Positions 47,042 to 59,639 of a stretch of 64,000 nucleotides of DNA are shown piece after piece. Within the stretch, counting starts at the first letter, position 1; each line of letters opens with the position of its first letter. Made by a program: the position numbers and the translations under genes. The notes beneath the pieces are model-generated. The model did no database searches. It was not told where the DNA came from and saw only the letters and a list, made by a program, of their open reading frames with translations. The stretch comes from Pseudomonas sp. J452 (lineage in GTDB: Bacteria; Pseudomonadota; Gammaproteobacteria; Pseudomonadales; Pseudomonadaceae), in assembly GCF_024666525.1 (NCBI RefSeq), contig NZ_CP088294.1, positions 2,294,001-2,358,000 on the forward strand. The letters are read 5' to 3'.

Positions 47042-47060
47042 CAGCCCACTTCAATTAAAT

Positions 47061-47201
47061 AGAACCGACATAGGGTTGAGCGAGCTAGAGAAAAACAAGG
47101 CAAAAGCGGGCGAGGGCGCGGAGTTTACGCGCTGTAAATGAGCAGCCCGAGCCCGCTTTTAACGCAGTTTTTCCGACGCGCAGCCGACCCTACAAGGTTC
47201 T
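47061..47201 (+). repeat. Structured MITE-like element, copy A
   Basis: Terminal inverted repeats AGAACCGACATAGGGTTG and its near-inverse end in CTACAAGGTTCT. The centre forms a nested hairpin: AAAAGCGGGC/GCCCGCTTTT, GGG/CCC and an apical TTTAC-GCGCT-GTAAA. A 70-nt core (from about 47096 to 47164) aligns without gaps to copy B at 57.4 kb with 55 identities. The element ends 21 bp before the next start codon. Confidence 0.8.
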
Positions 47202-47221
47202 CAGAAGAGGACACCCTTGCA

Positions 47222-48004
47222 ATGAGTAAACCCATGATTGGCCTTCCCCTGTGCCGCTGGCAGCTGACGAGTCGTGATATCGGCTGGTTCCATCTGGTGG
47301 GGGAGAAGTACATTCACGCGGTCACCGGTTTCGACGCTTTCCCGCTGATGATTCCGGCCTTTGGCGACGACCTGGACATGGAGACCGTGCTCGACAGCGT
47401 CTCCGGCATCATGTTCGGCGGCTCGCTGTCCAACGTGCACCCCAGCTGCTACGGCGACGACCACCCCGGCCTGGGCCTGGCCGACCAACCCCGCGATGCC
47501 ACCGTGCTACGCCTGATGCGCGCCTGCATCGAGCGTGGCATTCCCTTCCTCGGCATCTGCCGTGGCGTGCAGGAACTCAACGTGTTGTACGGCGGCACCC
47601 TGCACCGTGAAGTGCATGAGGTGGAAGGTCGCCTGGATCACCGCGAAGTAAAAGACGTGCCGGACGACGTGGCCTACGGCCCGATCCACAAGGTCGCCCT
47701 GACCGAGGGTGGCGTGCTGCACAAGCTGCTCGGCGAGCGCGAGATCAGCGTCAACTCGCTGCATGGGCAGGGGATCGACCGTCTCGGTGAGGGGCTACAG
47801 GTCGAGGCGGTCTGTGAGGACGGGCAGATCGAGGCGGTCAGTGTGATTGGTGCCAAGGCGTTTGCTGTGGGGGTGCAGTGGCATCCGGAGTATCGCTATT
47901 GGGAGAAGGCCGATTACAACGCGCTGATTGGGGCGTTTCATGAGGCGGCGAGGGAGTATCAGGCCAGCAAAATCACCAAGCGGAGGGCGGCGGTGGGGGC
48001 TTGA
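47222..48004 (+). CDS. PuuD-type gamma-glutamyl hydrolase (class I glutamine amidotransferase), copy 1
   Basis: The 260-aa protein has the nucleophile Cys113 in FLGICRGVQELN and the His221/Glu223 pair in GVQWHPEYR. The family (peptidase C26; PuuD/PauD) cleaves gamma-glutamyl amides in polyamine breakdown. Beside bauABC it may release beta-alanine or GABA from its gamma-glutamyl form. The start MSKPMIGLPL was chosen; upstream in-frame codons lie in the repeat element and are not conserved. Confidence 0.9.
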   Translation: MSKPMIGLPLCRWQLTSRDIGWFHLVGEKYIHAVTGFDAFPLMIPAFGDDLDMETVLDSVSGIMFGGSLSNVHPSCYGDDHPGLGLADQPRDATVLRLMRACIERGIPFLGICRGVQELNVLYGGTLHREVHEVEGRLDHREVKDVPDDVAYGPIHKVALTEGGVLHKLLGEREISVNSLHGQGIDRLGEGLQVEAVCEDGQIEAVSVIGAKAFAVGVQWHPEYRYWEKADYNALIGAFHEAAREYQASKITKRRAAVGA

Positions 48005-48029
48005 ATAGTGCCGCGTTGAACGGTTATTG

Positions 48030-48060
48030 AAAAAAGCCCGTCGTATGACGGGCTTTTTTT
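48030..48060. terminator. Bidirectional terminator before the OLD-family gene
   Basis: A6-GCCCGTC-GTAT-GACGGGC-T7 hairpin between convergent genes. Confidence 0.92.
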
Positions 48061-48085
48061 ATGAGTTGCTCTACCTGGGTAGGTT

Positions 48086-49792
48086 TTAATATGGCTTAGA
48101 TTGCTTAATTAGCTCCGGTATTTTTCTTCTGATTCGCTTATATGCGCCAGGCAGATTTCTCGGGGGGAGCAGTTTGATTACCGGCAGTATTCTGTCGAGC
48201 TTTTTGATAGATTTCTTGTTCTTGATTAATAGCTCTGCGGGGTTTCTGTCTTGTGCGGGAATGTTATATGAGTTGTATAGAAGGTTTGCTGCGGTTGGCG
48301 CGGCGACCAAGTCTACTTCGAGAGACCATCTGAAACAGAAGAAGCTCTTTGATTCGAGGATATCCATAGCTTTTGAGTGGTTGGTGCTAAGGTTGTTAAG
48401 TAAGTCTTCCTGTTCCTGTTGTAGTGGTAGGATATCGTGAACGAGAATTCCATTGTTGTAATTGCTTTTGTATTTTGGGAAGCCGCTGCCATCTCTGCTT
48501 TTTTCTAGTTCATCGTGCAGGTAAGGGGTGAAGTAATCTCTGTCAACTACAACGGCAAATGGGATCGCTAGCTCTTTTAAAAGCCAGTAAGCATAGGGGA
48601 GTGCCTTTACGCCATCTAGGGCAATAATTGATACGGAGTAATCAATAGGGTCGGCGCCACCTTCTCGCAATAGGTGCTTAACTATTTCAGCATCTATTGG
48701 ACTTTCGGTTGTTACTACAAAGTTTGAGAAGAAAAATTCTGAATTCCTTCTTCTGTAGAATTGGTAATACCCATCCTTGTCAATATCTCTACTTCTCCAG
48801 AAATCTTTCGATAGTTGTGTTGTTGTGACTTCTATTCCTCTGTTTGGAGTGCTCTTTTTTCTGCAGAGAACAACTTCTTCATGTAAGAGTTCATCAAGCA
48901 TTACCGTTGAGTGAGTGGTAAATATCACCTGTAGAGGCAGTTTGCGCAGGTTGTTAATCAGTTCTCTCTGCGCCTGAGGGTGAAGGTTACTTTCAGGCTC
49001 TTCGATTCCTAGTATATAGGTGCTCTGGTTTTGCTCGGCCAAGTATGAGTAGAGTGCGAATGCCGCCATGCTTTGAGTGCCGCTTCCGCAATCTTCAAGA
49101 TCAACTGTAGTGTCGCCTTCAGTCACCCTGAGAGCTATATCATTCAGAAATATTGAGTAGTCTGGCTGGGTTTTGTATCCAAGATTAAATGTAAACACTC
49201 CAGAAAGCGGCGTAACCTTTCTTAAATGCTTGTCGAGTCCATCTAAAGTTCGGGTTTGAATACTTTTACTAAGTTCGGCAACCTTTGGGCTTATTCTGTC
49301 TCTTCGGCTGGTGTGGTTTGTTAGCCAAGCATGGACGGCCTTTTTTAATAGGCTATTATCTGTCCAGTTCGCAACCTCATGATCCCTGCGAAGAGGAATG
49401 TATGCGTAGTTGATGTGTCTCTTGATTTTCTCATGCAGGTCTTGTGGGGCTGTCAGCCACTCTTGTCCATTATAGATTTGCCATGTTTCGGATTTCTTAT
49501 ATTTCAATCTTGCTCTTAGTGTGTTGTCTTGTCCATATGTCGTTAGCTCAATTTCAATCGGAACATCAGAGAATTCTACTTCTATTACTGTTGTGGATGT
49601 TTTTTGGAATGCATGTCTGCCCGACTCAAAGTGTGGCTTTTCTTCTGTGAAATTAAAAAATGCATTTATTGCTCTGAGTATTGAGGACTTTCCGGCGCTG
49701 TTTTGTCCTACAAGAGCTAGTTCGGAGTTAACTGAGATAACCGAGGTTCTTATTGCTCTGAATTTCTCTATATATACTTCGGTTAGCTTCAT
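48086..49792 (-). CDS. OLD-family ATPase-nuclease (AAA + TOPRIM), candidate phage defence
   Basis: The 568-aa protein has an N-terminal ABC-type ATPase: Walker A GQNSAGKSS (29-37), signature-like CGSGTQSM (235-242), Walker B YILGIEEPE (259-267) and H-loop His294. A TOPRIM nuclease domain follows, with Glu363/Glu369 (VTTESPIDAEIV), Asp417/Asp419 (VVVDRDYF) and FRWSLEVDLV near the end. P2 Old and GajA share this layout. No UvrD-like partner adjoins, so class 1 OLD is more likely than Gabija. Base composition is clearly AT-richer than all neighbours, indicating horizontal gain. Confidence 0.88.
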   Translation of the reverse strand: MKLTEVYIEKFRAIRTSVISVNSELALVGQNSAGKSSILRAINAFFNFTEEKPHFESGRHAFQKTSTTVIEVEFSDVPIEIELTTYGQDNTLRARLKYKKSETWQIYNGQEWLTAPQDLHEKIKRHINYAYIPLRRDHEVANWTDNSLLKKAVHAWLTNHTSRRDRISPKVAELSKSIQTRTLDGLDKHLRKVTPLSGVFTFNLGYKTQPDYSIFLNDIALRVTEGDTTVDLEDCGSGTQSMAAFALYSYLAEQNQSTYILGIEEPESNLHPQAQRELINNLRKLPLQVIFTTHSTVMLDELLHEEVVLCRKKSTPNRGIEVTTTQLSKDFWRSRDIDKDGYYQFYRRRNSEFFFSNFVVTTESPIDAEIVKHLLREGGADPIDYSVSIIALDGVKALPYAYWLLKELAIPFAVVVDRDYFTPYLHDELEKSRDGSGFPKYKSNYNNGILVHDILPLQQEQEDLLNNLSTNHSKAMDILESKSFFCFRWSLEVDLVAAPTAANLLYNSYNIPAQDRNPAELLIKNKKSIKKLDRILPVIKLLPPRNLPGAYKRIRRKIPELIKQSKPY

Positions 49793-49921
49793 AAATTCTC
49801 CTATGGTTATTAACGGTCGTGAGAAATCTGAGCATTTGTAGGATGTGCAACACTTCGCTTTCTCGCTATCGGAGCCCAGTTAGGCTTCTTATTTACTCCG
49901 AAATCACGCTTTTCGCCTTCC

Positions 49922-50131
49922 CGGCGAGTCACTTTCTCTTTGCTTGTGCAAAGAGAAAGTAACCAAAGAGAAAGCACACCCGGCATCCGGGTCTCGCTGC
50001 GCGAGACTCCCTTCGTTCCATCCTTGCTCCAGGGGCCCGCCGCGAAGGGCCATCCCTGGCCCATCGCGGCTCTCGCGGCATCCATGCCGCTCAACCCCTT
50101 ACGCAACGATTCCACTCAGCCTCCTGACGGG
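49922..50131. repeat. 210-bp inverted repeat, left arm
   Basis: Starts CGGCGAGTCACTTTCTCTTT and ends CCTCCTGACGGG; an imperfect inverted copy lies at 50420-50629. Contains the CTTTCTCTTT / AAAGAGAAAG hairpin. Open frames here are not conserved proteins. The whole gap 49793-50865 has no supported gene. Confidence 0.8.
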
Positions 50132-50204
50132 ACCCGGTCCCGGCCCGACCTGTTGGCGCAAGGGCGGCAGTGTGGTGTTGGCGTTTGAGTTCGTTTTACC
50201 GATG

Positions 50205-50299
50205 GTTCCCACGCTCCGCGTGGGAACCCATCCGGGGACGCTCCGCGTCCCGCAGACGCGGAGCGTCTGTGGCTGCATGCCCACGCGGAGCGTGGGAAC
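50205..50299. repeat. Nested GTTCCCACGCTCCGCGTGGGAAC palindromes
   Basis: A 23-bp palindrome (50205-50227), a related GGGACGCTCCGCGTCCC pair (50234-50268) and a third copy CCCACGCGGAGCGTGGGAAC (50280-50299) in a row. This is a common pseudomonad intergenic palindrome family. Confidence 0.8.
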
Positions 50300-50305
50300 G
50301 ATCGA

Positions 50306-50358
50306 GTAGGGCGGGTGAAACCCGCGTGGGCCGGCGGCGCGGGTTGCACCCGCCCTAC
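50306..50358. repeat. REP-like inverted pair (GTAGGGCGGGTGAAACCCGC)
   Basis: GTAGGGCGGGTGAAACCCGC and its near-inverse ending GCACCCGCCCTAC, separated by 13 bp. A REP family distinct from the one near 18.85 kb. Confidence 0.78.
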
Positions 50359-50419
50359 GGCGAGGCATACCGACAACGCCGAGCAACCTGAAACGTGAAG
50401 CCTTCATGCGCGCAGACTC

Positions 50420-50629
50420 CCCGTCAGGAGGCCGAGCGTAGGTGTTGCGTAGGGGGACGAGCCGCATGGATGCGGCGAGAGGCTTAAAGGGCCAGGGATG
50501 GCCCTTGTAAGCCGGCCCCCGGAGCGGCACCGGAGGGAGGGGAGTTTCGCGCAGCGAAACCCGGATGTCGGGCGCGCTTTCTCTTTGGTTACTTTCTCTT
50601 TGCGCGCGAAAAGAGAAAGTGACTCGCCG
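50420..50629. repeat. 210-bp inverted repeat, right arm
   Basis: Inverse of the 49922-50131 arm, with scattered differences: begins CCCGTCAGGAGG and ends AAAGTGACTCGCCG. The equal arm lengths and 288-bp centre make a very long potential hairpin. Confidence 0.8.
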
Positions 50630-50865
50630 TGCGAGGCGAAACCTGTAGCCCAAAGCCGAGGAAAGCGTATCGGGTGAAACAAGGAGAGGGCGCCAACTCC
50701 CAGCACCCACCCCACGAAACGTGACGGCACCGGGGGGAAAGTCCTGTTGGCAATACAGCGCGGCTTCAATGGCCATAAGCGCATCCATGCAAGTCGATGC
50801 CCCGACCTTACTGCGAAATACTCGCTCAAGGCCATAGCTGACAGACCAGTCAGCAAGCTCCGCCG

Positions 50866-51600
50866 CTAACTAACCCAGCGCGCCTCCCGCACCACCATAT
50901 AGAGAAACCCTCGCTCACTCGGCGCCCGATAGGAGCCAATGGCCCCCAGCTGGTGGGCCATCACCGCCGTCATCTCCCAGCCATCGACCGGGTCGGCCGA
51001 CCAGGTGGCACAGGCCAGCTTCAGAAAATCCAACGACTCCCCCAGCTCGCGAACTACCCGCGAGCGGGCTTTGACCAGCTCCAGAAACGACTCGTTCGCC
51101 CAGGCCCACATCCAGGTGTCGGAATGGCTGGAGAACGTACCGACGAAATCCACCGCGCACTCCACCGCTGGCTTGCCGTCATTGGAGAAAATCAGCTGGC
51201 CGGTTTCCTGATACCAGTCCCAGCGCTTGTGCTCGCCAATCCGGTAGGTGGCCATGAAACTGTCCTGCTGCGCCTGCAGGTAGTCGAAGCTCTCGGCGAT
51301 CAGCGCGTGCAGCACTTCCTCATCCTCATGCCAGTTGCGCTCGCGGCTCTGGCAGTAGCACTCCGCACACACCACGCAGATGTCAGCAAACGCCTCGGCG
51401 CGATCATTCCATTCGCCTTCCTGCTCCAGCACGGCGTCGCACTGGTCGCACCAGGCATCGGGGTAGAGGTCGTCAGGCTGCTCCGGGTCGTACGCCACGT
51501 TGAAGCCCTGGCCCTCGCCGCTCTGCAGGTGCTGGCAGATGAACGTGGCGGTGTTGGAGCCATGCACGCCACATTCAACGTTGCGCTCTTCATCACTCAT
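50866..51600 (-). CDS. DUF6882-like protein with cysteine-rich N-terminus
   Basis: The 244-aa protein has eight cysteines in its first 83 residues, including CDQC (51-54) and CVVC-AECYC (75-83), likely zinc-binding. The rest resembles DUF6882: QDSFMATYRIGEHKRWDWYQ, WMWAWANESFLELV and MAHQLGAIGSYRAPSERGFL. Function unknown; similar domains occur in polymorphic-toxin immunity settings but no toxin gene is near. Composition is normal for the genome. Confidence 0.72.
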   Translation of the reverse strand: MSDEERNVECGVHGSNTATFICQHLQSGEGQGFNVAYDPEQPDDLYPDAWCDQCDAVLEQEGEWNDRAEAFADICVVCAECYCQSRERNWHEDEEVLHALIAESFDYLQAQQDSFMATYRIGEHKRWDWYQETGQLIFSNDGKPAVECAVDFVGTFSSHSDTWMWAWANESFLELVKARSRVVRELGESLDFLKLACATWSADPVDGWEMTAVMAHQLGAIGSYRAPSERGFLYMVVREARWVS

Positions 51601-51822
51601 GGGTGGTCCTCGAATACCGTGCTAGGCAGCATCTTTGATCGTCCTGCCAGTCACGTCCAGCGGCACCCGCTGTCCTTGCGCGGGCTCGTTCTGACAATTA
51701 GCCGCCCCTGTGATCGCCGCCGCACAGACACCCGCTCCGCGCCAGCGAACACTCAGCATTCCTCCCGTGCGCCGCGATTCAGCGCCAGCGAGGTCCCTGA
51801 GTTTTGCATTGGAGTACCGAAC

Positions 51823-52038
51823 ATGAGCATCTTCAAACTGTTTGCCACCGGCATCCTGCTCGCCACCCTGGGCTTGAGCGGCTGCTCGGGAATGTCCCAC
51901 CAGGAGAAGGGCACCGTCGCAGGCGCTGCCGTGGGTGGTGTGGCGGGTAACCTGCTGTGTGGTGGCGTGCTGTGTACCGGCGCCGGCGCGGTAGTGGGTG
52001 GCGTGATTGGCCACGAAGTGACCAAGGATAAAAAATAA
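51823..52038 (+). CDS. Glycine-zipper lipoprotein (OsmB-like)
   Basis: The 71-aa protein has a lipobox LGLSGC (Cys21) and a glycine-zipper hairpin (GTVAGAAVGGVAGNLLCGGV, then GAGAVVGGVIGHEV), the layout of OsmB-type small lipoproteins, which are often stress-induced. Two extra cysteines in LLCGGVLCTG lie in the turn between the two zipper helices. Confidence 0.85.
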   Translation: MSIFKLFATGILLATLGLSGCSGMSHQEKGTVAGAAVGGVAGNLLCGGVLCTGAGAVVGGVIGHEVTKDKK

Positions 52039-52154
52039 CCAGCAGCAGGCTGCGTTCGCCACGGGTTAAACGGCTTTGCGGGAGCTCTCTGTACCAGCAA
52101 AGCCAGTAGTTCAACGCCGACGCGCGATTCATCCGGCGCTGGGCCGAACAAGGC

Positions 52155-52532
52155 TCAGTGCAACATCAACACACTGCTTTCCGGCTCTTTAGGGTTGTAG
52201 TACACATCGACCTGCTGCCCCACCGGGTAGTCCGCCAGTTCGCGGCGGGCGTGCTTCTCGTTGCTGTAGGCATGGCTGCGGATGCGCAGACGTTTGCCGC
52301 TGTAGGGCTGGCCATCGACCTGATAGGAGTAGCTCAGCCGAACCTCGTACCTGGGCGTGTAGGAACTGTAGTCGCCCTTGGGTGAGACCCGCTCCGATAC
52401 CTGGACGATCCGCGAGCTGGTGATCTGCCCCAGGGTCGTCGGCCATTCGCGCGAGTCGCCCATTTCCAGAGCCTGCTTGATCCCTAAGAACATCACCACG
52501 GCAAAGATGGCGACATGCAGCAGCTTCTTCAT
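52155..52532 (-). CDS. DUF3592 small membrane protein
   Basis: The 125-aa product has one N-terminal membrane segment (MKKLLHVAIFAVVMFLGIKQ) and a DUF3592 domain: REWPTTLGQITSSRIVQVSE, VRLSYSYQVDGQPYSGKRL and ADYPVGQQVDVYYNPKEPES. The domain is probably periplasmic. Function unknown. The start is the internal ATG; upstream in-frame residues are not conserved. Confidence 0.85.
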   Translation of the reverse strand: MKKLLHVAIFAVVMFLGIKQALEMGDSREWPTTLGQITSSRIVQVSERVSPKGDYSSYTPRYEVRLSYSYQVDGQPYSGKRLRIRSHAYSNEKHARRELADYPVGQQVDVYYNPKEPESSVLMLH

Positions 52533-52706
52533 TGCGCACCACCGACTGGCTGAAGGCGAGGCGAGGGGCAATCTGCGTGGTTGAGGCGGGGCAAGGCGGC
52601 TTCCATCCGATGGTTAACACCGGCATCTGCCGGCCGGACAGCACGCTACTGCAGGCCTGTACCACTGTCCATCCGGCGCTGGCTGCTTTTCTCACCTCTC
52701 CCTAAC

Positions 52707-52731
52707 CCTCTCCCATCAGTGTGAGAGGGGA
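52707..52731. repeat. CCCTCTCCCA hairpin
   Basis: CCCTCTCCCA-TCAG-TGTGAGAGGGG, related to the hairpin near 42.46 kb, in the gap between two minus-strand genes. Confidence 0.5.
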
Positions 52732-52790
52732 CTGTCCGGGTGGCCAGCAAGTCATTATCCCGTTGTATGGGCGCGGCATTGGCCGCAAAG

Positions 52791-52825
52791 AAAAACGCCG
52801 CATTCCAGGAGAAAGGCGGCGTTTT
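52791..52825 (-). terminator. Terminator of the His/Tyr-rich protein gene
   Basis: On the minus strand GCCGCC-type stem (CGCCGC/GCGGCG) with a 14-nt loop followed by five U. Confidence 0.7.
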
Positions 52826-52864
52826 CCTTGAGTGAGCAGGTTTAACGCAGTGCGGGGCTCGTGC

Positions 52865-53209
52865 TTACCAGCGGTAGCCGTGATGGCGGTGATGATGCCG
52901 GTGGTGGCGTTTTTTGTAGTGGCGATGGCTATCGACGTAATACACCGGCGCCGGGGTGTAGTAGACCGGGCGCGCTTCGTAATACACCGGTTGTGGCGGG
53001 TAATAGGCCACGGGCGGCGGAGCGTAGTAGACCGGTTCCTGTTGGTAAACCTGCACTGGCCGTGCGGTGGCGCCAATGATGCCACCGATTATTGCACCCA
53101 CAGCGACCCCCGCGGCGACATCGCCGCGATCTGCCGCAATGGCAGGTTGCTGGCTGAACAGCGCCAGGCTGGCAACCAGCCCTGTGATAAGGGGGATACG
53201 CGCAAGCAT
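52865..53209 (-). CDS. Exported glycine-zipper protein with Tyr/Pro repeats and a His-rich tail
   Basis: The 114-aa protein has a signal peptide cleaved near QPAIA, a glycine zipper (DVAAGVAVGAIIGGIIGATA), a tyrosine-proline repeat region (PVYYAPPPVAYYPPQPVYYE) and a C-terminus of histidine and basic residues (HYKKRHHRHHHRHHGYRW). Similar proteins are common in Pseudomonas but uncharacterised. The histidine tail could bind metal ions. The 487-bp region upstream (53210-53696) contains no other gene I can support. Confidence 0.8.
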   Translation of the reverse strand: MLARIPLITGLVASLALFSQQPAIAADRGDVAAGVAVGAIIGGIIGATARPVQVYQQEPVYYAPPPVAYYPPQPVYYEARPVYYTPAPVYYVDSHRHYKKRHHRHHHRHHGYRW

Positions 53210-53696
53210 GATCGAAACTCCTCTGGTAACCGGCCTGTTCCGGTTACTGGTTTCGACTGCGCAATAACGCGCTAAATCCCCGCGGGAAATGTAAATCCTG
53301 TGTAAACGCCTTATCACGCTACTCCGCACCTGGGTGGGTTCGCGGCGTGCTGCCGGATGCGCGGTAAGCAGGGCGTTAGTCACCCGAGCAAGCTTGCCAG
53401 TGCGGGCTGCGCTGTATGGGAAACCGGTGAACCAAGCCGGGGGCACAATTCTTGGCCCCTGCTCTCAACGGCAGTGACGGCTGGGTTGCGCTGCAGGCGG
53501 TGAGCCAGCGCAGGCTCAGGTATGGGCGGTGTGTCGGCGCAATATGACCTGGCAGTCGTCGCTTGAGTGCATGGCAAGATGCCATTACTCTGCCGGTGTG
53601 TTCAGGGATGATCGCGCGGATGGTTTTTCGCCTCCTGCAGGCCCTGGCGCACCGGGCCTGGCCCGGCTCAAAAAACATCATTTGAAGGAACAAACC

Positions 53697-54254
53697 ATGC
53701 GGCGTTTGCTGTGCCTCTCCCTGTTTTCCCTGCTGCTCACCGGCTGTGCCTCTTCGGCCAAGATCGAAGGCATGACGGTTGCCGAGTCTCAGGCTCGTGC
53801 CAACACCTACGCCCCGGCACTGCAGGAAAACCTGCAACTGGCCGAGGTCAAGGGCGGTCAAGAAACCAACCCAATGTGGACCTCGGAAATCGGCGGTGCG
53901 GACTTCCAGGCTGCTCTGCAGCAGTCGCTGGGTAATGCCGGTCTGCTCGATAACTCGGGCAAGGCTCCGTACTCGTTGCGTGCCAATCTGCTGCGTGTCG
54001 ATCAGCCGCTGTTCGGCCTGGACTTCGAAGTGACCAGCGAGGTCGAGTACAGCCTGATCGACAATGCGACAGGCCAGGAAATCCTCCGTGAGACCGTGCG
54101 TACACCCTTCACTGCAGGTGTAGGCGATGCGTTTGTCGCGGTCACCCGCCTGCGTCTGGCTAACGAAGGCGCCGCGCGTGAAAACATCAGCGCTTTGCTC
54201 AAGCGTCTGGCGACGCTGAACATCGAGGCCAAGCAGGTTTCGCTGAGTCAGTGA
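53697..54254 (+). CDS. YajG-like lipoprotein
   Basis: The 185-aa lipoprotein has lipobox LLLTGC (Cys17) and resembles the YajG family of uncharacterised lipoproteins, with TSEIGGADFQAALQQSLGNA, a beta-rich middle and LRLANEGAARENISALLKRL near the end. The start ATG follows GAAGGAAC. Function unknown. Confidence 0.82.
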   Translation: MRRLLCLSLFSLLLTGCASSAKIEGMTVAESQARANTYAPALQENLQLAEVKGGQETNPMWTSEIGGADFQAALQQSLGNAGLLDNSGKAPYSLRANLLRVDQPLFGLDFEVTSEVEYSLIDNATGQEILRETVRTPFTAGVGDAFVAVTRLRLANEGAARENISALLKRLATLNIEAKQVSLSQ

Positions 54255-54301
54255 GAACCGCCGGGGGGGGCGGCGGTAAGCCTGTCTCCCCTTTGCTATC
54301 A

Positions 54302-54332
54302 GGGCGCAACCACTGCTGCAGTGGTTGCGCCC
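54302..54332 (+). terminator. Strong hairpin after the YajG-like gene
   Basis: Perfect 14-bp stem GGGCGCAACCACTG / CAGTGGTTGCGCCC with a 3-nt loop, followed by TGTTCATTTT. Confidence 0.75.
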
Positions 54333-54387
54333 TGTTCATTTTCGGGTCATGAAGCCAGCCTGCAGGGCGTGCCGGTTCTGTGGCGGG

Positions 54388-55254
54388 CTACTGCTTGACC
54401 AGCTCGACGCGGCGGTTCTTTGCCCGGCCTTCTTCGCTGCGGTTGTCCGCCACCGGACGTTCCTGGCCGAAGCCGGCGGCCTGCAGGCGCTCGGCCGGGA
54501 TGCCGGCAGCGACGATGGCGGCCATCACGCTCTGTGCGCGGCGTTCCGATAGCGCCTTGTTGTCTGCCGGCTGGCCGACGTTGTCGGTGTGGCCTTCGAT
54601 GGCGATCTTCAAGTCGGGCGCGCTGCTGAGCATGCTGACGATTTCACGCACGCTGGCCTGGCCGTCGGCTTTGAGGTCGGCCTTGCCGGTGTCGAAGTTG
54701 ATATAGAGGGCGATGAAGCCGTTGCGGTTGAGTTCGTCGAGCAGCTGGTTGGCGCTGACCACCTGTTGCATGGCGGCGACTTCGACAATGGCCAGCCGGT
54801 AGCTCTGCGTCGGCGCGCTGAAGATGCCCGGCTCGACCCGCACCCAGACCTCCTTGCCGCCAGTGAGCACCTTGAGCGTGGTCTCGCCGCCGTCGCCCTC
54901 GCTGGGCAGGCGCTCGTAGATCACTTCGCCGCCGATGGCCTTGATCGCGTTCTGGTAGTTGCGCAGCAGTTGCAGCGGGCTGGGCTGGGTTTCGGCGCTG
55001 TCGTGGAAGTAGAAGATCTGCGTGGCATTACCTTCGACGCTATGGCGCTGTGGCACGCCATCAATGCTGTCGGTGGCGAAGTCGACGGCGTTGTAGTTCT
55101 GCTGGTATTCGGTGATGTGCGAGTTCGGGTAGCGGCTCAGCAGCGGGTGATCCTTGGCGCCGCCAATATCTTCGCCGGCTTGGGTCGGTAGCGCGAGGGC
55201 CAGCACCAGGCCGGCCAGGGGCAGGCGGTGCAGCAGGGTGGCGAGCATGGTCAT
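54388..55254 (-). CDS. OmpA-family peptidoglycan-associated envelope protein
   Basis: The 288-aa protein has a signal peptide (cleavage near LPTQA, residue 26), a 130-residue N-terminal region starting EDIGGAKDHPLLSRYPNSHI, and a C-terminal OmpA domain (about 165-288) with IEGHTDNVGQPADNKALSER and NRRVELVKQ, which bind peptidoglycan. The N-terminal domain resembles DUF4892. Not a beta-barrel porin; more like a periplasmic stabiliser. Confidence 0.88.
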   Translation of the reverse strand: MTMLATLLHRLPLAGLVLALALPTQAGEDIGGAKDHPLLSRYPNSHITEYQQNYNAVDFATDSIDGVPQRHSVEGNATQIFYFHDSAETQPSPLQLLRNYQNAIKAIGGEVIYERLPSEGDGGETTLKVLTGGKEVWVRVEPGIFSAPTQSYRLAIVEVAAMQQVVSANQLLDELNRNGFIALYINFDTGKADLKADGQASVREIVSMLSSAPDLKIAIEGHTDNVGQPADNKALSERRAQSVMAAIVAAGIPAERLQAAGFGQERPVADNRSEEGRAKNRRVELVKQ

Positions 55255-55405
55255 GACGGAACTCCTGCCGGGTTGGCAATGGCGCAGCGAACTTCCCCAT
55301 GTTGAGAAACTCTAGTTCATGGCCCCCGCGCATGCCGTGAGCCCTGCCGGACGGCCGGCTTTGCGCTTTACTGCAAGCGGGGATCACGGGCACGGGGGCG
55401 AGGCG

Positions 55406-56167
55406 ATGGGGGCAGCATGGTTGGGCATGGCAAGGCTGGCCGCCTGGGCGCAGGCGCCTGGTTACGGCGGCAGGCTGTTGCTGATTGCGCTGTTCGGCAT
55501 GGCGCTGACGGCCTGCCAGGGCCGCCTGGCGCATGAGTCGATCGTCAGCAAGAGCAGCGCGCCCCAGGCCGGCGAGTTGCTGCAGACCGATGTCGATCGC
55601 ATGGCGACCCTGGCCATGCGCGACAACCTCAACAGCCTGTACCAGCTGATGAGCAAGCTGTACCAGCGCAACCCGCAGGAGTGGCAGAAGACCGGGTTGG
55701 CGAGCCGCGCCGCAGCCGAGCGGGCCATCCATCAGGCCATCGAGCAGAACCGGCCACTGCCACAGCTGGGCGGGCGCCGCGATGTGGCGGCGCTGGATTA
55801 CGCTCTCAGCCCGGATTTTTCCGGTGACCGGGTCGGCGCCTTTATCTTCGCCCTGGGCAGCATGCTGGTCACCGCCCACGGCGGGCGCACCGAGTTCTAT
55901 CTGACCGATTCATTCAACGCCGAATTCATCTACAACGCCGCACGCAATATCGAGAAGGCCGCCTGGATGCTTGGTCAGCGCCGCGACAGCCGTGGGCGCC
56001 CGCTGCTGTTGTCGAATGAGGGCGGCAACCTGAGCTTTGCCGTGGAGTTCGGCAAGATGGTGGCGCGGCTCGACCTGCTGACCCACATGCTGGAGGAGCG
56101 CTACCGGCGTCTGGGGGTCAACTATGCGCAGAGTCTGTTGTTCATGAACTTCCTGCCGGTGCAGTGA
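55406..56167 (+). CDS. Predicted lipoprotein, unknown family
   Basis: The product is about 253 aa with a lipobox MALTAC (Cys37 from this start, Cys30 if it starts at 55427). The mature part is helical and contains DVDRMATLAMRDNLNSLYQL and FSGDRVGAFIFALGSMLVTA. Similar lipoproteins are annotated as hypothetical in Pseudomonas. It is divergent from the OmpA-like gene. The following 411 bp (56168-56578) is AT-rich near its start and shows no gene. Confidence 0.78.
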   Translation: MGAAWLGMARLAAWAQAPGYGGRLLLIALFGMALTACQGRLAHESIVSKSSAPQAGELLQTDVDRMATLAMRDNLNSLYQLMSKLYQRNPQEWQKTGLASRAAAERAIHQAIEQNRPLPQLGGRRDVAALDYALSPDFSGDRVGAFIFALGSMLVTAHGGRTEFYLTDSFNAEFIYNAARNIEKAAWMLGQRRDSRGRPLLLSNEGGNLSFAVEFGKMVARLDLLTHMLEERYRRLGVNYAQSLLFMNFLPVQ

Positions 56168-56578
56168 AGTGCGCGCCGCTGCGTATTTCGCTGCTGGTGC
56201 TGTTCGTAAAATATATTGGACTATATGCGCGAGAAAAATATTCTTTCCAGCGTGCCGTCCCTTGCCGTTAGGTGGTTACAGCGCTGTTTTGCAAAGAATT
56301 CCTGATGAAAATCGTCTGCCAATGTTTGACATATTTTACGGCTTTGGCAGACTGGCTAGCAGGTTCCGACTGCCAACAGGCCGGCTCGGGCAGACGACCA
56401 GCACTTTTCGGGCTTGTAACGAGGGGTGTTCCAGAGCGTGCCAGTGCGGCTCTGGAAGGGGTGTTGCCCAAGCCGCCGTCCTGTGTGTGAAGTCTGCGAA
56501 CCTGCAAAACAGGCAGCGCCAGGCCTTGGCCGCGCGCCTGCACAGCAATGACAGGCCCGGCCTGTCCCAAGGTGATGT

Positions 56579-57370
56579 ATGTCTAACAACAACACAGTTA
56601 ACACTGCTAAAGCCCCACGCAAACCCGTGGTCCTGATGTCCATGGGCAGCCAGGAGCGCAAGGGTCACGACTACCAGGTGATGACCCACAAATACATCGT
56701 GCCGCTCGTCGAGATTTCCGGCTGCGTTCCGCTGCTGGCGCCGACCTGCTGCGGCACCGACGATCTCGAGCAGTACCTGGATATGGTCGATGGCGTGTAC
56801 CTGACCGGTGCCGGCAGCAACATCGACCCGAGCCTCTACGGCCAGGAAAACCTCACCCCCGGCAAGTCCCAGGATCGTGACCGCGATCTGTTCGACCTGC
56901 CGTTGATTCGCGCGGCCATCGCCCGTGGCCTGCCGATCTTCGGCATCTGCCGCGGCATGCAGGAAATCAACGTGGCCCTGGGCGGCGACATGCACCAGAA
57001 GGTCTATGCGGAGCCGGGCTTCGACGATCACCGCGAAGACACCGACGAGCCGGTGGAGGTGCAGTACGCGCAAAGCCACGCTGTACGCCTGGTGCCGGAC
57101 AGCTGGCTGGCCAAGCTGATGGGCAGCGAAGAGATCCACGTCAACTCGCTGCATGGCCAGGGCATCAAGACCCTGGGCGAGGGCCTGGAGGCCCTGGCCT
57201 ACGCCGAAGACGGCCTGGTCGAGGCATTCCATGCACCGGCGCTGCCGCAGTTCACCTTCGCCGTGCAGTGGCACCCGGAATGGCGCGCGGCGTCCAACCC
57301 GGATTCGGTGAAGATCTTCCAGGCGTTTGGTGACGCCTGTCGTGAGCGGGCCGCGCAAGGCGCCCGTTAA
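56579..57370 (+). CDS. PuuD/SpuA-type gamma-glutamyl hydrolase, copy 2
   Basis: The 263-aa protein has Cys124 in FGICRGMQEINVALGG and His232/Glu234 in AVQWHPEWR. It belongs to the same C26 family as the 47.2-kb gene and shares VNSLHGQGI with it, but overall similarity is moderate, so they are old paralogues. Its TAA stop lies within the terminal repeat of the element that follows. Likely role: releasing GABA or related amino acids from gamma-glutamyl conjugates in polyamine breakdown. Confidence 0.9.
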   Translation: MSNNNTVNTAKAPRKPVVLMSMGSQERKGHDYQVMTHKYIVPLVEISGCVPLLAPTCCGTDDLEQYLDMVDGVYLTGAGSNIDPSLYGQENLTPGKSQDRDRDLFDLPLIRAAIARGLPIFGICRGMQEINVALGGDMHQKVYAEPGFDDHREDTDEPVEVQYAQSHAVRLVPDSWLAKLMGSEEIHVNSLHGQGIKTLGEGLEALAYAEDGLVEAFHAPALPQFTFAVQWHPEWRAASNPDSVKIFQAFGDACRERAAQGAR

Positions 57371-57514
57371 CAGGCTGTTGAAAAACTACCTGCGTTGCCA
57401 TCGCGGCGTTAAAAACAGGCTAAAAATGCTCATTTACAGCTCGTAAACTGCGCTTTTTCGCCTGTTTTTGCCTTGCGCTGGCTGCCTCGCCAACGTTTTT
57501 CAGCAGCCTGTTAA
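57367..57514 (-). repeat. Structured MITE-like element, copy B
   Basis: Perfect-ended inverted repeats TTAACAGGCTGTTGAAAAA and TTTTTCAGCAGCCTGTTAA bracket 148 bp. The centre pairs as AAAAACAGGC/GCCTGTTTTT, AAAA/TTTT and an apical TTTAC-GAGCT-GTAAA. It is the inverse orientation of copy A, with compensatory differences in each arm. Confidence 0.85.
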
Positions 57515-59399: not shown

Positions 59400-59491
59400 C
59401 ACGGCCTCTGCGGATGGCGGGCAACGCTGTGCCATGCAGTATAGGGTCGGCCAGGGCCTGTTGCTGGGCAGGGCGGGGCTTTCCCACAGGC

Positions 59492-59605
59492 AAAAAAAGA
59501 CCCGGCAAAGTGCCGGGTCAATAACCGTGATTAGCCTGATGAGGAGATAATCTGAAGAGCCCGACTGTTGGCCTTCCAGCTTATCGGCTGATCTCGCGAC
59601 CAGTT
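59492..59605 (-). ncRNA. prrF: PrrF iron-responsive small RNA
   Basis: The minus-strand transcript of about 114 nt begins AACTGGTCGCGAGATCAGCC, contains the core TCTCCTCATCAGGCTAATCA and ends in a terminator GACCCGGC-ACTTT-GCCGGGTC with a U7 tract, matching the PrrF RNAs of Pseudomonas. PrrF base-pairs with mRNAs for iron-using proteins (the functional counterpart of RyhB) and is made when iron is low. Start and end are approximate. The P. aeruginosa tandem pair is not present here; a second copy would be elsewhere. Confidence 0.92.
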
Positions 59606-59610
59606 GAGTT

Positions 59611-59639
59611 AATAATAACAATTCTCATTTTTGCGTCAA
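59611..59639 (-). promoter_or_regulatory. prrF promoter with Fur box
   Basis: Minus strand: -35 TTGACG (59634-59639), 16-bp spacer, -10 TATTAT (59612-59617). The spacer and -10 overlap AATGAGAATTGTTATTATT (59611-59629), a good Fur box, so iron-loaded Fur would block transcription. Confidence 0.85.

Follow-up and report, generated by a model that had tools for sequence, protein, structure and literature searches.

Two repeats in a Pseudomonas chromosome are members of a large group of very small mobile DNA elements with a strand-specific fold

Two short repeats lie in opposite orientations within a 64,000-nucleotide (nt) stretch of the Pseudomonas sp. J452 chromosome (NZ_CP088294.1, positions 2,294,001 to 2,358,000; hereafter the window). 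An earlier note on this DNA described a shared core whose arms pair in each copy although their bases differ, and took this as selection for a folded DNA hairpin or RNA. What kind of element keeps a shape while replacing the bases that make it? We find that the two repeats, copies A and B, are two members of an extensive family of very small mobile DNA elements. One strand keeps an elaborate fold while its paired bases, and even its ends, change, which suggests that the folded strand is itself functional. Probably these elements are hitchhikers moved in trans by several transposases, with the single-strand fold itself under selection. Their transposon-like ends, of several types, and their placement at stop codons go beyond the earlier note. 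In window coordinates, the two copies comprise the following features.

47062-47200, plus strand: copy A, whole element (139 nt), A-type ends GAACC...GGTTC; the folding strand is plus
47088-47175, plus strand: copy A, 88-nt model core (covariance-model match at chromosome positions 2341088-2341175, E 5.2e-23)
47121-47144, plus strand: copy A, apical motif GAGTTTAC-N5-GTAAATGAGCA
47059-47061: copy A, left flank at the TNA target position, reading ATA and differing from the right flank
47201-47203: copy A, right flank at the TNA target position, reading TCA
57371-57510, minus strand: copy B, whole element (140 nt), B-type ends CAGGCTG...CAGCCTG; the folding strand is minus
57396-57483, minus strand: copy B, 88-nt model core (covariance-model match at chromosome positions 2351396-2351483, E 1.6e-20)
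57427-57450, minus strand: copy B, apical motif CAGTTTAC-N5-GTAAATGAGCA
57367-57370: copy B, TTAA target duplication, containing the stop codon TAA (57368-57370) of the open reading frame (ORF) at 56579-57370
57511-57514: copy B, TTAA target duplication, other side

Both copies proved to lie where the earlier note had placed them, with limits now refined to those above. Its ungapped 70-nt core with 55 identities was reproduced (BLAST E 1.4e-11 within the window); the arms it named pair as described with different bases in A and B, the apical TTTAC-N5-GTAAA stem is common to both, and each copy has its own ends, dissimilar to those of the other and self-complementary, imperfectly so in A. Folded as RNA, the folding strands of A and B give z-scores of -8.05 and -6.95, and none of 200 shuffles did as well. 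Copy B departs from most copies in that its complement folds slightly more stably as RNA (-68.6 versus -65.6 kcal/mol). Short (139-140 nt), non-coding and with paired ends, both look like miniature inverted-repeat transposable elements (MITEs). Copy A, given its unlike flanks, is probably old.

These two copies are a small part of what the host genome carries. Allowing up to 3 mismatches, we located 111 sites for the 24-nt apical motif on its single 4.86-Mb contig (53 plus, 58 minus) and none for the reversed control. A covariance-model search of the chromosome, as the note had proposed, returned 132 core matches at E <=0.001 with 150 of 1136 candidates scored. Our host-genome placement counts are based on 109 copies obtained from stretches by a looser pattern.

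Support for the fold and for its conservation is good. From 219 pattern matches we retained 115 distinct copies with two anchor words in place; the rest had inserted modules, missing anchors or were duplicates. We chose 72 of the 115 for diversity, not pairing, and aligned 69. In these, 95.8% of 1725 cells pair, and 341 cells have changed on both sides of a pair, compared with 98.5 after shuffling and 31-82 with partners slid; such shuffled and slid controls underlie our covariation statistics. Twenty copies found by the model alone, and unused in building it, have 97.3% of cells paired and 91 double-change cells versus 22.6, although alignment to a model is biased in favour of that model. The apical stem covaries among the model-only copies, L287, L293 and L294 being examples; the compensated forms found there are TTTGC/GCAAA, TTGGC/GCCAA and TGTAC/GTACA. 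Its constancy in the pattern-picked set is partly a product of the exact search pattern. These double changes support the note's proposal of selection for a folded form, as do the kept loops and strand-asymmetric wobble pairs described below.

Unpaired positions vary least: stems drift while the internal loops of the core, CAAGG/AACGC, a tandem G·A and GCGSAG/TGAGCA, stay conserved. Between two stems lies the tandem G·A, which 99 of 115 copies set in a YGAR context on both arms; the adjoining outward pair is G-C in 65 copies and C-G in 36. Such a context, with a leading pyrimidine and a trailing purine, suits sheared G·A pairs in both RNA and DNA. With fold and loops conserved between genera, the core departs from the usual picture of a MITE interior as an unconserved parental relic. 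Some copies carry extra hairpins at three fixed places, in the left arm, after TGAGCA and in the right arm, and the short left-arm and right-arm modules are reverse complements of each other (both by eye). The stems of these optional modules vary from copy to copy but remain paired, as in CGCGCTAAAGCGCG and GTGCTAAAGCAC (L050, L053, L055, L070, L076 and L104 are among the loci with modules). We dropped a reading of the core as a primosome assembly site, which rested on AAGCGG, a motif we associate with such sites, in many cores; the hexamer is not conserved as such because its first two positions covary with the other arm, and a literature search gave nothing.

The fold favours one strand. Random change would give equal numbers of G·T and A·C mismatches, whereas the stems of the folding strand contain 57 G·T and 14 A·C (p 3e-7; 115 copies). 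Distinct end pairs show the same excess, 113:25 in the host genome and 91:43 elsewhere; other filters gave 13:4 and 16:5 in the host genome and 30:5 and 23:16 elsewhere, one of the four being weak. Among distinct copies with well-paired ends, drawn from 221, the folding strand is more stable than its complement in 80/88 host-genome copies and 72/82 elsewhere by RNA values, and in 82/88 and 76/82 by DNA values. These strand tests overstate independence because the copies have common ancestry. We rejected lagging-strand targeting as an account: 68/109 copies have the folding strand on the lagging side (coarse GC skew of sampled stretches, summed by hand), a bias that may reflect gene orientation.

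The same core is carried by at least four end types with different target rules. Consensus classes divide 216 copies into 87 A, 29 B, 21 H, 5 C and 74 other, and the median end-pairing score is 14 versus 7 in shuffles, with 108 of 221 copies beating every shuffle. Among the 109 host-genome copies, 68 were assigned to A and 12 to B. A copies sit in C|TNA|G (flanking C in 44/68, G in 47/68), with TNA at the right flank in 61/68 and the left in 48/68. Their two 3-nt flanks are identical in 39/68, the target and 3-bp duplication of an IS5/PHIS-type transposon. B copies sit in YTAR: the right flank is YTAR in 11/12, the left having been required to be YTAR for selection, and the 4-nt flanks are identical in 8/12. 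Both types thus show the target site duplication of a MITE. For H copies, inspection by eye often shows TA or YTAR-like flanks.

A candidate mobiliser exists for one of these types. A degraded IS1182-family element (locus L232, 782-2295; chromosome about 62589-64102) has perfect 16-bp ends, CAGACTGTGTGAAAAC, that are matched by the C-copy ends CAGGCTGTGTGAAAAC and close variants. Like some C copies, it lies inside a terminator-like palindrome (by eye); unlike them, it codes for a (broken) transposase and lacks the core, which is absent within 450 bp of its ends. Copies within such palindromes, at the 99% null score, number 2/5 for C, 2/87 for A, 1/29 for B and 1/21 for H. For the A and B ends, no matching autonomous element appeared in the stretches examined, and an IS5-like piece in L233 has ends that do not match A ends. 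A search for PF13737 found no host-genome match, but control genomes were silent too, which makes it uninformative. Separately, L067 (3375-3462) holds two A-type ends 54 bp apart without a core, probably a deletion remnant.

Where the elements land is also asymmetric. No copy of the 109 lies within a gene, by a crude gene caller, and the settings are 36 convergent, 11 divergent, 40 tandem (folding strand antisense), 21 tandem (folding strand sense) and 1 unresolved. Of 68 A copies, 44 have at their right end the stop codon of an antisense ORF (minimum 90 codons) and 9 have at their left end that of a sense ORF (p 1e-6); for B copies the figures are 8/12 and 2/12. By the gene-caller rule, 53/156 C|TNA|G sites outside gene interiors are stop codons, an expectation of ~17% per orientation; by the ORF rule it is 8.1% per orientation of 442 C|TNA|G sites. 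We scanned 10 of 52 stop-abutted ORFs, and 9 had a Pfam match. Matches including SSB, adenylate kinase, chorismate synthase and RmlD aligned nearly to the model end, so these ORFs have natural gene ends. The bias is weaker outside the host genome, at 29 right versus 15 left in 80 copies; subsets comprise 38 Pseudomonas copies (12 right, 8 left), 9 from other Gamma- and Betaproteobacteria (1 right, 2 left) and 7 from Bacteroidota and others (2 right, 0 left). It may originate in insertion preference or in survival. In the window, the neighbouring ORFs are as follows.

56579-57370, plus strand: ORF abutted by copy B at its stop codon; the folding strand of copy B is antisense to it
47222-48004, plus strand: ORF downstream of copy A; start 47222 was chosen, the mechanical ORF beginning at 47138, within the element

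Both ORFs resemble what we take to be related class-I glutamine amidotransferases of the PuuD kind, copy A standing just upstream of one and copy B at the stop codon of the other. Rfam also places a PrrF RNA at window positions 59491-59639 on the minus strand.

How far does the family reach? The exact apex occurs in 15/57 relatives and in 40/369 genomes of the class (33/272 genera), the host genome included in each, with reversed controls at 0; presence is thus patchy at both levels. Among 19 relatives read in frame, the 70 nt that follow the stop codon orthologous to the one abutted by copy B hold no element. A scan of species genomes yielded at least 119 stretches, and the matches listed include Pseudomonas, Stutzerimonas, Halomonas, Salinicola, Chromohalobacter, Marinospirillum and Methylophaga as well as metagenome-assembled genomes (MAGs) of Nitrosomonadales and Bacteroidota. 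Bacteroidota copies, all from MAGs, share loops and stems with the family besides the apex. The model, built without Rikenellaceae, matches 11/11 Bacteroidota loci given (17 in all; 2 of the 11 matches are partial) at E 6.4e-15 to 4.2e-7, values not independent of the apex because the loci were fetched by it. Weak model matches came from a Christensenella MAG (0.0012) and a Deltaproteobacteria MAG (0.00013). One "Pedobacter" copy looks Pseudomonas-type and may be mis-binned. Copies with H-type ends lie on IMG/VR viral contigs (L269, L271, L273), and a plasmid of Candidatus Fukatsuia symbiotica, an aphid symbiont in the Enterobacterales, carries a copy whose ends are A-like (L264, 2985-3056). 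A Thalassolituus MAG (L214, 732-1330) has tandem or nested copies, one apparently inserted into another's apical loop, with a right end near the stop of an antisense ORF that is presumably ribonuclease J-like. Phage and E. coli collections gave no match to copy B, the sole query.

Could the host, rather than the element, be what benefits? The folded RNA might regulate or stabilize neighbouring transcripts, with MITE movement merely spreading copies. Tolerance of wobble pairs fits RNA, and so do the absence of copies from genes and the excess of convergent over divergent settings. Placement at stop codons tells against this: in 44 A copies the folding strand runs antisense to the ORF that it abuts and in 9 sense, so that the mRNA of that ORF mostly bears the strand that usually folds less well. 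The patchy presence among relatives also counts against it, and Rfam 15 has no match over the window copies at gathering scores; for six loci searched at E up to 1, every Rfam match lay outside the element (positions compared by hand). We consider such a host-selected RNA element unlikely.

Less probable still, and disfavoured, is an ordinary double-stranded MITE whose covariation arose from template-switch correction of imperfect palindromes instead of selection. Such correction is known for long near-palindromes, and the stems are indeed the varying part. It would, however, erase the tandem G·A mismatches, which most copies keep, and Bacteroidota copies have the same loops; nor is a strand asymmetry in wobble pairs expected unless one strand were preferentially corrected. 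A further account, which we hold very improbable, is a recombination site akin to integron attC sites and REPINs, which act through a single folded strand; here an enzyme would read one strand's hairpin, cutting and joining at it. The strand-specific hairpin, conserved unpaired bases, free stems and placement at gene ends all resemble such a site, yet the attC core motifs RYYYAAC with GTTRRRY stand in the outer arms of 1/221 copies, which led us to reject integron attC identity, and the target duplications fit DDE transposition.

Among published systems, the nearest we found are two groups of Pseudomonas repeats. MITEPsy1 of Pseudomonas syringae is a short non-autonomous element of 100 nt with 18-nt inverted ends, GGAAGGTCTGAAAAAGCC, reported to transpose and with related sequences noted in other genera (PMC3189936; also treated in PMC3191145). 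Compared by ends and duplication, it resembles B copies in its 4-nt duplication, CTAG or YTAA; the portion of that account available to us does not describe a structured core, stop-codon bias or end exchange (PMC3189936). The R0, R2 and R178 repeats of P. fluorescens are high-copy, intergenic, hairpin-forming and MITE-like and favour tail-to-tail settings, and R0 and R2 have the same ends as resident insertion sequences; in the available part of that source, which we compared by description, covariation or strand analysis is not described (PMC2718517). The C|TNA|G target rule that A copies follow is described for IS5-related PHIS transposons, although the C|TNA|G group in the part of that study available to us is eukaryotic (PMC4482050). 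In the open-licence literature, subscription journals lying outside our scope, we found no account of the core, strand-specific covariation or stop-codon placement.

We return to hitchhiking in trans as the reading that best accommodates these observations. Each non-autonomous, MITE-like element of ~140 nt would combine terminal inverted repeats of one among several types with a common strand-specific folded core. Mobilization in trans is likely, with transposases acting on the ends: an IS1182-family type would serve C ends, and IS5-like DDE types, to which the target duplications point, would serve A, B and H ends. Across the different ends the core has retained its fold; the ends may have been exchanged. 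Selection would see the folded single strand because something conserved across bacteria, a putative partner, binds it. We lean slightly towards single-stranded DNA as the acting form because the asymmetry runs through the ends on which transposase acts; for RNA, the chances are somewhat below even.

Several results weigh against this reading. The wobble excess outside the host genome falls to 23 to 16 by one filter, end pairing beats the best shuffle in fewer than half of the 221 copies (108), flank triplets are unlike in 29/68 A copies, 29/109 host-genome copies fit neither A nor B, and C-type copies in terminator loops number 2/5. No intact mobiliser was found in the host genome, where two DDE_Tnp_1 remnants remain (other families were not searched), and the NF033580 search there returned 0 matches, with no cognate transposase found for the A ends. 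The tree of end changes is short and weak (8 changes, four classes, 85 copies, without a shuffled control), and 0/68 distinct cores were seen with two end types. Exact empty insertion sites in relatives, another check the earlier note proposed, were not found.

MITEs are commonly seen as relics of deletion whose interiors carry no meaning. In this family conservation lies in the interior and variation in the ends. If so, small mobile elements could take a functional fold between genera, using more than one transposase family. We raise, tentatively, the possibility of a cross-phylum selfish nucleic acid defined by its structured single strand (RNA or single-stranded DNA) and not by its ends, one that would borrow the ends of whichever transposase is at hand, be recognized by a putative conserved cellular factor and settle antisense on stop codons in the host genome. 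The copies are a ready experiment, offering many natural hairpin variants with a clear strand, kept loops and a defined landing site.

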